Shown here piece by piece: positions 8,721 to 11,093 of a stretch of 15,626 nt of DNA. The first letter of the stretch is position 1, and every line of letters starts with the position of its first letter. The stretch spans positions 1-15,626 of the forward strand of contig CAMEOL010000008.1 of NCBI GenBank assembly GCA_945929765.1. Direction: 5' to 3'. This DNA is from an uncultured Gemella sp. Its GTDB lineage: Bacteria > Bacillota > Bacilli > Staphylococcales > Gemellaceae. The position numbers and the translations under genes are program-made. A model generated the notes under the pieces. The model was given only the letters and a program-made list of their open reading frames with translations, made no database searches and had not been told where the DNA came from.

Positions 8721-8749
8721 ATTTTACTATAAACTATAATTCGTTGCAA
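8721..8749 (-). promoter_or_regulatory. Probable promoter of folC-folP
   Basis: Minus-strand TTGCAA (8744-8749), a 17-base spacer and TAAAAT (8721-8726) precede the folC GTG by about 30 bases, giving a short leader. The -10 matches at five of six positions and the -35 at four of six. Confidence 0.55.
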
Positions 8750-8793
8750 CTTAATTAATGTGTAGTTTTTATAACATTATAATAAAAAAACGA

Positions 8794-8822
8794 TTTCAGT
8801 AATTTGTTGTGTGTGTTATAAT
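8794..8822 (+). promoter_or_regulatory. Promoter of the micropeptide/C39-like/lipoprotein unit
   Basis: An extended -10, TGTTATAAT (8814-8822), is a full consensus match. The -35 region (TTTCAG at 8794-8799) is weak. Transcription would start near 8829, about 40 bases before the micropeptide ATG. A second TATAAT at 8778-8783 lies upstream without a clear -35. Confidence 0.65.
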
Positions 8823-8869
8823 AAAAGTGAAAAGAAAACTAAAAAATATAATAGAAAGGAGAAAATTTT

Positions 8870-8950
8870 ATGAATTATAAACTTCCTCAAAGATACAAAA
8901 ACGGTGATGAAAACAACCTACATCTTATGAAGAAAGACTTTCTTTTCTAG
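8870..8950 (+). CDS. 26-residue micropeptide, unknown function
   Basis: ATG at 8870 has an excellent AAAGGAG site eight bases upstream, nearly the same as the site of the next gene. The frame runs 26 residues (MNYKLPQRYKN..., ending KKDFLF) to TAG at 8948. It is the first frame after the promoter and lies 21 bases before the C39-like gene. The peptide is polar and charged with an aromatic C-terminus. It has no signal sequence, membrane helix, double-glycine leader or cysteine, so it is not an obvious bacteriocin or exported pheromone. It could be a regulatory leader peptide (its end overlaps a hairpin touching the next ribosome site), a small cytoplasmic partner, or a remnant. No homologue is recognised. 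The ribosome site is the main evidence that it is translated. Confidence 0.6.
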   Translation: MNYKLPQRYKNGDENNLHLMKKDFLF

Positions 8951-8962
8951 AAAATACGAAAG
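8938..8962 (+). promoter_or_regulatory. Hairpin reaching into the ribosome site of the C39-like gene
   Basis: CTTTC (8938-8942) plus TTTT (8943-8946) can pair with AAAA (8951-8954) and, after a three-base bulge, GAAAG (8958-8962). The right arm includes the first bases of the AAAGGAG site (8959-8965). Ribosomes finishing the micropeptide would melt it, suggesting translational coupling. The stem is AU-rich and weak, so this is a suggestion only. Confidence 0.35.
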
Positions 8963-8971
8963 GAGAAATAT

Positions 8972-9703
8972 ATGAAGAAATTGAATTTATTAATGATTGT
9001 TAGTACAGCAACGCTACTACTTGCGGTAGTAACCAACGTTTCCTATGCCGCAAAAAACTACAAAGGACAAACTGTAACTGTAGATGGGGTTCAAGTATCA
9101 TATGATCCAACCGCAATAAATGGTGGTATTGATTTAACATCTGAAACAGAAAAGAAAGTTGCTATAACAACAAGAGGCATATTAGAACAAAAAGAAATAT
9201 TCGTCCCTTTTGAAACACAAATAAATGACTATTATTTAGGCACAGCTGCTACTAGTATGTTAGCAAACTCAATAAATATTTCTACAAATCAACACAAAAT
9301 ATCTTCACTATTTGACACCACAACTACTAATATAAACCCCGAAATCGACTTATTAAATGCTCTAAACAAAGTTGTCGCAGGTTCTAATTTTAAATTTTAT
9401 TGGCAATGGCACAATAACGTTAATGATATAAATACTATAAGAACTCATATAGTATCAGCTATCGAACACGGTAATCCTGTAATGGTAAGCACAGCAGAAG
9501 GTCCAGGCGATACTTATTTACGAGGACACAACACCGGATACCGCCTATATAACGTCGTTATCATTTCTGGCTTCTATAATTACGGAAATAGGGTAAAATA
9601 CATCGATTCTGGATATGGTCGATTTTCTGGATTTGTTAAATCACAAGTTACAACTATAAAAAATTTAAGTTATGCTACAGGAACTAGAGGCTATGCTTGG
9701 TAA
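8972..9703 (+). CDS. Secreted C39-peptidase-like protein lacking catalytic Cys (pseudo-peptidase)
   Basis: The protein has 243 residues. A clear signal peptide (KK, then a hydrophobic run 5-20, S-Y-A before the likely cut at 26/27) exports it. From about residue 75 the layout resembles the Peptidase_C39_2 fold: IFVPFETQ, then DYYLGTAATSML (86-97) where such enzymes have Q...YYCGPAS..M, a LYNVVIISGF strand (192-201) where they have HYVVVxGY, and YIDSGYG (210-216) supplying the Asp. The nucleophile position is L89 and the His position N194 (or Y193); the whole protein contains no cysteine. If the fold call is right it cannot act as a cysteine protease and may bind peptides or wall material. The ATG has AAAGGAG seven bases upstream. 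Its last 11 bases overlap the next gene. Confidence 0.7.
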   Translation: MKKLNLLMIVSTATLLLAVVTNVSYAAKNYKGQTVTVDGVQVSYDPTAINGGIDLTSETEKKVAITTRGILEQKEIFVPFETQINDYYLGTAATSMLANSINISTNQHKISSLFDTTTTNINPEIDLLNALNKVVAGSNFKFYWQWHNNVNDINTIRTHIVSAIEHGNPVMVSTAEGPGDTYLRGHNTGYRLYNVVIISGFYNYGNRVKYIDSGYGRFSGFVKSQVTTIKNLSYATGTRGYAW

Positions 9704-10841
9704 ATTTCTTAAATTATTTATTTGTTTCGCATTAGCAATTCCATTAACAAGTTGTAACGAAAAAGCATTCCGTAATATAAACAAAGAGCCAGCAATAAAC
9801 AATTCAAATGAGTACATAAGCACAACAACTGCTAATAAAGTTTTTGAAAAAATCAACATCCAAAATAAATTTACAGATAGTAAAGACTATACTTATCCTA
9901 GTAATTACACATTTACACCTAATACACTAATAGAAAATAAACTTATAGGAGAAGCTGACGAATTTGCAAAACCAGGAATTAAGCATTTAGGGATATACGA
10001 TCTTAGCACGGAAAGAATAGAAATAATAAAACAAATAGACGACACATCAGCATATAAGTCGTTAATGATACTAGACTTCAAAGATAATAATATTTTGTTT
10101 GAAGAGTTTGATTACGAAAAAAGAGAATCAAAATTTTATTTCGGTAATATCCAAGACAAAAATTTCAAGTTGTTAGAACATAAAACTAACGTACCACAAA
10201 TACATCAATCTCAAGGAATTATTTATGAGCAAGATGTAATAGTATCATTATATAACGAAGAAACTAACAACTACGAACTAAACTATTACGAAATTAAAGA
10301 AAATAAAAAACAAACTATAGAGAAGTCTAACACCGGATTTCCTATTATCGTTAAAAAAACGCTATATTATTTAACAATAGATAATGATAAAAAAATTACT
10401 CAACTTATTTCTTATGATATTGTAACAAATTCTAAAAAAGTTATTTTTGAAACTAAAGATGAAAAAATGTATCTTTCAGGTTTGACAAGTAACGGAGAAA
10501 CATTAGCACTCTCTATGCAATACGAAGAAAAGGCTGAACTCTACATCTTAGAAAATAACGAATTAGCTAAGATTTACGAAACTACTTGGATAGAATCACT
10601 ATCTTTTAAAGGGAATATTATAACATGGTTAGGCGACTCTACTATTCCTGAACGTGAAAGAATGCAATATTTCGCTCTTGATATTAATAATAATCACGAA
10701 CTTATTAACGAGGGTGGTCCAATTATTTTATCAGATAACGGTATTGTTTGGATAGAATATAGAAAACCAGAAGCAGAAATTCCTAAAGGCGAAAGTATGA
10801 CAAACCAATATTCAAAAATTAAATATTTTAAATACAAATAG
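9693..10841 (+). CDS. Lipoprotein, probable beta-propeller, unknown function
   Basis: The chosen ATG at 9693 gives 382 residues with a textbook lipoprotein signal: MLGKFLKLF, a hydrophobic stretch and the lipobox LTSC with C21 as the lipidated residue. An in-frame ATG at 9672 would prepend two glutamates to the signal and has no ribosome site, so it is less likely. After an Asn/Thr-rich linker (to about residue 65) come repeated strand units such as LGIYDLSTERIEII and LISYDIVTNSKKVIFE, with alternating short hydrophobic strands like TolB/DPP4-type propellers. No catalytic motif is seen; a binding or scaffold role at the outer membrane face is inference. The start overlaps the C39-like gene by 11 bases, implying coupling, and a terminator follows at 10884. 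I do not recognise a named family. Confidence 0.75.
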   Translation: MLGKFLKLFICFALAIPLTSCNEKAFRNINKEPAINNSNEYISTTTANKVFEKINIQNKFTDSKDYTYPSNYTFTPNTLIENKLIGEADEFAKPGIKHLGIYDLSTERIEIIKQIDDTSAYKSLMILDFKDNNILFEEFDYEKRESKFYFGNIQDKNFKLLEHKTNVPQIHQSQGIIYEQDVIVSLYNEETNNYELNYYEIKENKKQTIEKSNTGFPIIVKKTLYYLTIDNDKKITQLISYDIVTNSKKVIFETKDEKMYLSGLTSNGETLALSMQYEEKAELYILENNELAKIYETTWIESLSFKGNIITWLGDSTIPERERMQYFALDINNNHELINEGGPIILSDNGIVWIEYRKPEAEIPKGESMTNQYSKIKYFKYK

Positions 10842-10883
10842 TTTAGTTAATAATAAACTCAGTACTAGTTTACTATTTATTTT

Positions 10884-10918
10884 AAAAGGGAGGACTTGAT
10901 TTTAGTCCCTCCCTTTTT
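10884..10918 (+). terminator. Rho-independent terminator of the lipoprotein unit
   Basis: AAAAGGGAGG-ACT (10884-10896) pairs with AGT-CCCTCCCTTTT (from 10904) with one bulged C and a seven-base loop, followed by a T-run to 10918. It ends the 8870-10841 operon 43 bases past its last stop. Confidence 0.88.
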
Positions 10919-11023
10919 ATTCAACCTCCAAATATATAGTTTAGCTCCAACTAAAAAAATAAAAAATTGAAACATTTGAAAATAACAAGAAAAACTGATA
11001 CTATATAATTATAAATTTATCAG

Positions 11024-11052: not shown

Positions 11053-11074
11053 TAAACATAATTACTAATTAGTA
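11034..11074. promoter_or_regulatory. Twin MarR-type operators
   Basis: TACTAACTAGTA (11034-11045) lies in the promoter spacer and TACTAATTAGTA (11063-11074), a perfect palindrome, lies just after the expected transcription start. They are near-identical and 29 bases apart. Occupying both would block polymerase, so autorepression by the MarR protein encoded next is the natural reading. Confidence 0.7.
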
Positions 11075-11093
11075 GTTTTGTTTAGGAGGTCTT

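Follow-up and report, generated by a model that had tools for sequence, protein, structure and literature searches.

The DNA analysed here, 15,626 nucleotides from an uncultured Gemella sp. (hereafter the window), carries between folC and marR a gene for a C39-like protein and a gene for a lipoprotein, and raises the question of whether these genes form a unit and what such a unit might do. An earlier note, made from the window alone, had proposed a closed unit of three genes, in which a peptide of 26 residues joins or regulates a secreted protein with a dead protease fold and a surface lipoprotein. The genome from which the window derives is incomplete (66% complete, 185 contigs), and its genus is represented in our set by six genomes (G000–G005). 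One genus-mate (G002) carries a syntenic copy of the unit on its contig, the locus L003, which serves below as the closest comparison.

Layout of the unit and its site between folC and marR

The three frames of the earlier note are found on the plus strand at the positions claimed. A 26-codon frame with a Shine-Dalgarno sequence (8870–8950) is followed by the gene of a C39-like protein (8972–9703), which is related to Peptidase_C39_2 and has an N-terminus resembling a signal peptide, and by the gene of a lipoprotein (9693–10841). The likely start of the lipoprotein is the ATG at 9693, which lies within the last codons of the C39-like gene. The lipoprotein start and the C39 stop share 11 nt (9693–9703, plus strand; ATGCTTGGTAA), and the same arrangement, with an ATG at the equivalent position, is found in L003, L004, L005, and L006 but not in L007.

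Upstream of the frames, the extended −10 element that had been pointed out (TGT-TATAAT, 8814–8822, plus strand) is present. A scan with the consensus promoter returned 14 sites against 15.3 expected from shuffles, which is no excess, and the promoter call therefore rests on the conservation of the block TG.GTGTG.TATAATAAAA, which is common to the window and L003 while the surrounding bases are poorly conserved. At the other end, the terminator holds as a G+C-rich intrinsic hairpin (10884–10917, plus strand; −17.0 kcal/mol for the folded 55-mer); in L003, the 75 bases 3′ of the stop fold to only −5.3.

Of the six genus genomes, G000 and G002 have the unit between folC and marR. In G001, G003, G004, and G005, these two genes are instead divergent, bare neighbors whose matches are 152–229 bp apart, with intergenes of about 140–150 bp and a broken marR in G004. 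The intergene of G003 aligns with the window up to approximately 8748 and again from approximately 11008, which gives the approximate ends of the block that is missing from the four genomes (8749–11007); no convincing terminal repeats were found at the block ends. Because it is present at this site in two genomes and the site is bare in four, the unit acts as a cassette, and its patchy distribution across Bacilli would favor spread by transfer.

Downstream of the block, marR of the window has a near-perfect promoter (TTGACA-17-TATAAT), and a palindromic TAATTAGTA-type sequence lies between this promoter and marR (11053–11084). Similar repeats precede marR in G003 and L003, and the palindrome is likely a MarR operator.

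Recurrence of the C39-like and lipoprotein genes

The genes of the two large proteins are adjacent at all five loci of the contig set (L003–L007). Those at L004–L007 encode an intact C39 triad and, as third gene downstream, a second C39-family protein. Across a class-wide sample, a C39 match was obtained in 21 of 398 genomes. Eleven distant C39 loci were inspected, a set without the streptococcal C39-2 loci and without L030 and L031, whose matches fall inside frames of more than 1300 codons; a propeller-type neighbor is present at all eleven, downstream on the same strand at ten and divergent at one.

Closer relatives were examined by presence and absence. In the 39-genome family of G259, nine genomes match C39, of which five are strong and four weaker ones (G279, G377, G479, and G511) were kept apart; the lipoprotein occurs in those five and in G377, a co-occurrence with a Fisher p of 1e-5 when kinship is ignored. 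Among 284 Streptococcus genomes, lipoprotein matches in 22 were sorted into 10 full-length proteins, 4 fragments (G387, G532, G565, and G732), and 8 matches to the N-terminus only (E 3.9e-5 to 9.7e-4), which we took as chance similarity of signal peptides. Nine of the 10 full-length lipoproteins adjoin a C39-family gene. Conversely, a C39-family match is found in 45 of the 284 genomes, and 36 of these 45 are without a full-length lipoprotein. In G215, the lipoprotein is present with no adjacent C39. From these counts, the lipoprotein seems to depend on C39 more than C39 depends on the lipoprotein. The two large proteins were thus checked for independent occurrence in most genomes, which the earlier note had named as a refuting condition, and the pair stands; what is conserved is the pair of C39-like protein and lipoprotein only, and the proposal of a three-gene unit is given up. 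Two proteins without assigned function are thereby joined into one recurrent unit.

The lipoprotein of the window carries the lipobox LTSC and is predicted to fold as a propeller (pLDDT 86.7, pTM 0.83), the two features of a bacterial β-propeller lipoprotein, in agreement with the surface propeller lipoprotein of the earlier note. In the sequence search for this protein, scoring was limited to the 7996 candidates with the most shared words. The propeller is a common fold. When the distant propeller neighbors were themselves built into two profiles (A5 and A6), both matched the streptococcal/Gemella profile (hhalign E 2.2e-7 and 3.2e-6). As single sequences against profile A4, L069 gave an E of 1.8e-4 over 136 columns and L065 gave 0.0029 over 272 columns. 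The two controls, an unrelated propeller of the lactonase type and another streptococcal lipoprotein, gave 0.17 (31 columns) and 0.002 (34 columns), respectively. By this comparison, propellers of the L069 type stand above the controls and are probably related to the Gemella/streptococcal lipoprotein, and for neighbors of the L065 type we are less sure of such kinship. A lipobox-like motif is found in nine of the 11 distant propeller neighbors (eight by pattern, L074 by eye); those of L071 and L073 appear to be membrane-anchored instead.

Two further arrangements were seen. In G377, one frame (L092:1306–2637) fuses a C39-like leader to a propeller, with no catalytic domain and no lipobox seen. 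In the streptococcal genome G532, L061:7931–9673 contains a leaderless C39 frame and a lipoprotein split over several frames, and to judge from these frames it is a decayed copy of the unit.

Loss of the catalytic residues in the C39-like protein

A search of 5.8 billion proteins with the C39-like protein gave 12 homologues at E ≤ 1e-3. Against Peptidase_C39_2 (PF13529), whose gathering score is 24 bits, the window protein (22.9 bits) and that of L003 (19.0) stay below the cut-off, and the intact homologues P0016–P0018 score 50.5–60.1 bits. The predicted model of the window protein is of moderate quality (pLDDT 75.5, pTM 0.67), and on this model the fold is papain-like. The best Foldseek matches are mostly papain-like proteins and include the phytochelatin synthase Alr0975 (E 8.0e-7) and the C39-like structure 3erv (4.7e-5). 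Others are the pseudomurein endoisopeptidase PeiR, the peptidase domain of ComA, the leader-cutting peptidase domain of PCAT1, and 9l5u, a papain-like toxin of a toxin/immunity pair.

No cysteine is found anywhere in the window protein. In the columns that we take to be catalytic, assigned from the motif of the family, the Cys, His, and Asp expected of an active enzyme are Leu, Asn, and Asp in the window and Phe, Ile, and Glu in L003. All three residues are kept in 10 of the 18 rows of the homologue alignment (A2). The eight rows without the Cys carry L, L, F, F, S, R, G, and S in its place, with both L rows and both F rows being near-identical pairs. The motifs E..GD and GH are retained in all 18 rows, including the eight Cys-less ones, and Trp is the final residue in 17 of 18; the Gemella-type protein keeps these invariant motifs together with the C-terminal GY(A/V)W. 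The dead protease of the earlier note is therefore half right: the catalytic loss is real in the Gemella-type clade, but it is a derived state, since 10 of the 18 homologues keep the Cys. On a 20-row tree with a weak backbone, the Cys state must change three times under parsimony, although the well supported branches force only one change; the Cys has likely been lost repeatedly in this family.

We then asked how strongly the two genes are constrained. Between the window and L003, dN/dS (Nei-Gojobori) is 0.335 for the C39-like gene and 0.132 for the lipoprotein gene, compared with 0.15–0.25 for five neighbors; FolC and FolP give 0.23 and 0.24. In the same comparison, the C39-like proteins are 62% identical and the lipoproteins 82%; among intact pairs (six comparisons), the C39 proteins are 61–70% identical and the lipoproteins 30–37%. 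Purifying selection on the C39-like gene is weaker but clear, and the heavier constraint now lies on the lipoprotein. Because E..GD and GH persist in 18 of 18 rows and dN/dS against L003 is 0.34, the window protein is best read as a pseudo-enzyme that is probably maintained, and not as a pseudogene of recent origin.

The same values bear on an alternative in which the lipoprotein alone matters in the Gemella-type clade, and translational coupling through the overlapping start is what retains a C39 gene that decays slowly as a passenger. The loss of Cys and His, the faster evolution of the C39 gene relative to the lipoprotein gene, the fusion of a propeller to a bare C39-like leader in G377, and the solitary lipoprotein of G215 all point in this direction. 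On the other hand, neither Gemella-type species has a stop or frameshift in the C39-like gene, its dN/dS is well below 1 even if somewhat above those of FolC and FolP, and the invariant motifs and the C-terminus are retained, which leaves the passenger an unlikely account.

Three Gemellaceae genomes (L009, L010, and L011 in G009, G004, and G002) encode, at a different genome site, a C39-family protein that retains the Cys motif and ends in NYAW, with no propeller neighbor within the stretch examined.

Several other assignments were tried and set aside. For a phage or plasmid origin, the homologue P0007 was unmatched in the phage and plasmid collections, and for a viral one, A2 gave 31 pattern matches in viral contigs, none of which was confirmed. 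As to known defense systems, the C39-like protein has only a weak PADLOC match (PDC-S05, 1.5e-4 over 36 residues), and PADLOC returned no match for the three other proteins given. The weak matches to Cystatin (0.039), tRNA_anti-like (0.0065), Transposase_32 (0.087), ExtJ (0.0074), and phrog_10920 (0.0024) were regarded as chance.

Gene neighborhoods, function, and known systems

The window unit has no adjoining Rgg/RNPP-type regulator or bacteriocin-type gene, and marR also stands at the bare sites. The neighborhoods of relatives offer clues to function. The comparison covered 22 loci (the window, L003, L005, L006, L007, L061, L065–L075, and L128–L132), of which L128 has the lipoprotein without C39 and L129–L132 have the lipoprotein with a second C39 type; L004 was excluded, as only 287 bp of its contig lie upstream. 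An HTH regulator of the Rgg/RNPP type adjoins the unit at eight of these loci and is absent from 14. HTH_3 is above cut-off in all eight regulators and TPR only in that of L005 (S. sinensis), which also carries RNPP_C (5.8e-15); Rgg_C is found in L130 (3.3e-7) and, below threshold, in L131. An N-terminal profile built from the eight themselves revealed no ninth regulator at the 22 loci at E ≤ 1. In the window and L003, the unit is flanked by folC and marR, and an HTH-TPR receptor gene is not among its neighbors.

Small frames were sought between the regulator and the unit (or around the unit) with a Shine-Dalgarno filter, and an export-type frame was found next to the regulator at five of the eight loci (L006, L007, L069, L070, and L072). 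Those at L069:4627, L070:4360 (plus), and L072:6419 (minus) have 45–46 codons, lie directly 3′ of the HTH regulators, and share (E/Y)DPGH ends; the L069 frame, which overlaps the regulator stop, ends in EDPGH and the L072 frame in YDPGH. We regard these frames as candidate peptide pheromones. In S. parasanguinis, a 29-codon frame upstream of the unit (L007:4297–4386, minus) ends in DIWRWWGFH and is divergent from an HTH_3 regulator, with an ABC exporter nearby. Pheromones of the ComS type are tryptophan-rich, and the L007 frame is alike in that respect.

Genes of another kind lie directly upstream of the lipoprotein at three of the 22 loci, where a DUF1430 protein and a lactococcin-972-type ABC ATPase are encoded (L128:5484–8121, L129:5276–7913, and L132:7844–10481); the family matches were made on the L128/L100 proteins, to which those of L129 and L132 are 93–98% identical. 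The gene context in relatives is suggestive of a toxin-immunity or bacteriocin pair.

A clue to the substrate comes from the intact homologue P0018, which matches the phage endolysin family phrog_6007 (2.7e-13), and wall peptides are therefore indicated as a target; the window protein itself has no match among the PHROG endolysin families. Taken together, these data lead us to a tentative main reading, to which we give a probability of roughly 0.35, that the two genes encode a pair that acts at the surface, in antagonism or on wall peptides, and that its enzyme has turned into a non-cutting binder in the Gemella-type clade. Where the enzyme is intact, it would be secreted and cut a wall peptide or a bacteriocin-type peptide of rival cells, and the anchored propeller lipoprotein, its likely partner at the cell surface, would dock it or shield the producing cell. 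In some lineages, the pair may be under peptide quorum-sensing control. In the Gemella-type clade, the former enzyme would now bind the same target or the propeller without cutting, as a decoy, an immunity factor, or a sensor, and the lipoprotein would for that reason be the part under stronger constraint. The pair may have a role in binding or inhibition at the surface, as the earlier note suggested. A more specific version, namely an undescribed surface antagonism of Bacilli in which a papain-like wall peptidase is secreted, the propeller lipoprotein of the overlapping gene protects or arms the producer, Rgg/RNPP peptide signaling switches the system in some lineages, and the weapon has become a dead decoy in the Gemella-type clade that binds the target uncut and confers immunity, appears doubtful.

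A different use of the same parts is peptide handling, in which the secreted C39 protein would trim or degrade a pheromone or nutrient peptide that the propeller captures at the surface, with the Gemella form capturing only. The regulators and small exported-type frames that adjoin the unit in several relatives are consistent with this proposal, as are the fold matches to ComA and PCAT1, whose peptidase domains cut leaders, but 14 of the 22 loci are without such a regulator, and the endolysin match of P0018 and the PeiR fold fit wall substrates at least equally, and we consider it improbable. Least of all do we favor the closed unit of three parts, with the 26-residue peptide as a regulator or member of the pair. 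Although its frame has its own Shine-Dalgarno sequence and sits between the promoter and the C39 start, it occurs in one of 15 Gemellaceae genomes, the window's own, has no start in the aligned leader of L003, and encodes no hydrophobic export segment of the kind seen in the candidate peptides of relatives, so that it is probably no functional part of the unit, neither as a conserved member nor as an exported propeptide.

The relatives offer a natural series (the intact enzyme, Cys-less copies, a propeller fused to a C39-like leader, and a propeller alone) that could help dissect the role of each part. Provided that the regulator controls the pair, the peptide-signaling neighbors would be a direct handle for switching it on. 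Should the pair prove to be a weapon, its dead form would illustrate the conversion of a weapon into a shield.

Both folds are already known, and the C39-propeller pair as a unit appears in none of the matches listed among open-licence papers. Pheromone genes adjoin their receptor genes according to two studies (PMC10075063, PMC9765709); the main text of the former contains neither of the terms C39 and propeller, and that of the latter does not contain C39.

Four known systems resemble the unit in part. It is similar to Peptidase_C39_2 in the papain-like fold of the window model and in its intact homologues above the cut-off, and differs in that the window protein is below the cut-off and Cys-less. 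It resembles the Rgg/RNPP(A) quorum-sensing loci in that relatives carry, beside the unit, small exported-type frames and HTH regulators, two of which have RNPP_C or Rgg_C above cut-off, whereas neither a regulator nor an exported peptide lies beside the window unit. The lactococcin 972-type ABC/immunity-type genes (TIGR03608, TIGR01654/DUF1430) immediately precede the lipoprotein gene at L128, L129, and L132 but are absent near the window unit. In the staphopain/staphostatin system, a secreted papain-like enzyme is paired with the small cytoplasmic inhibitor staphostatin. The unit shares with it a secreted papain-like enzyme encoded next to a non-enzymatic partner, which in the window is a predicted propeller lipoprotein rather than a small cytoplasmic protein.
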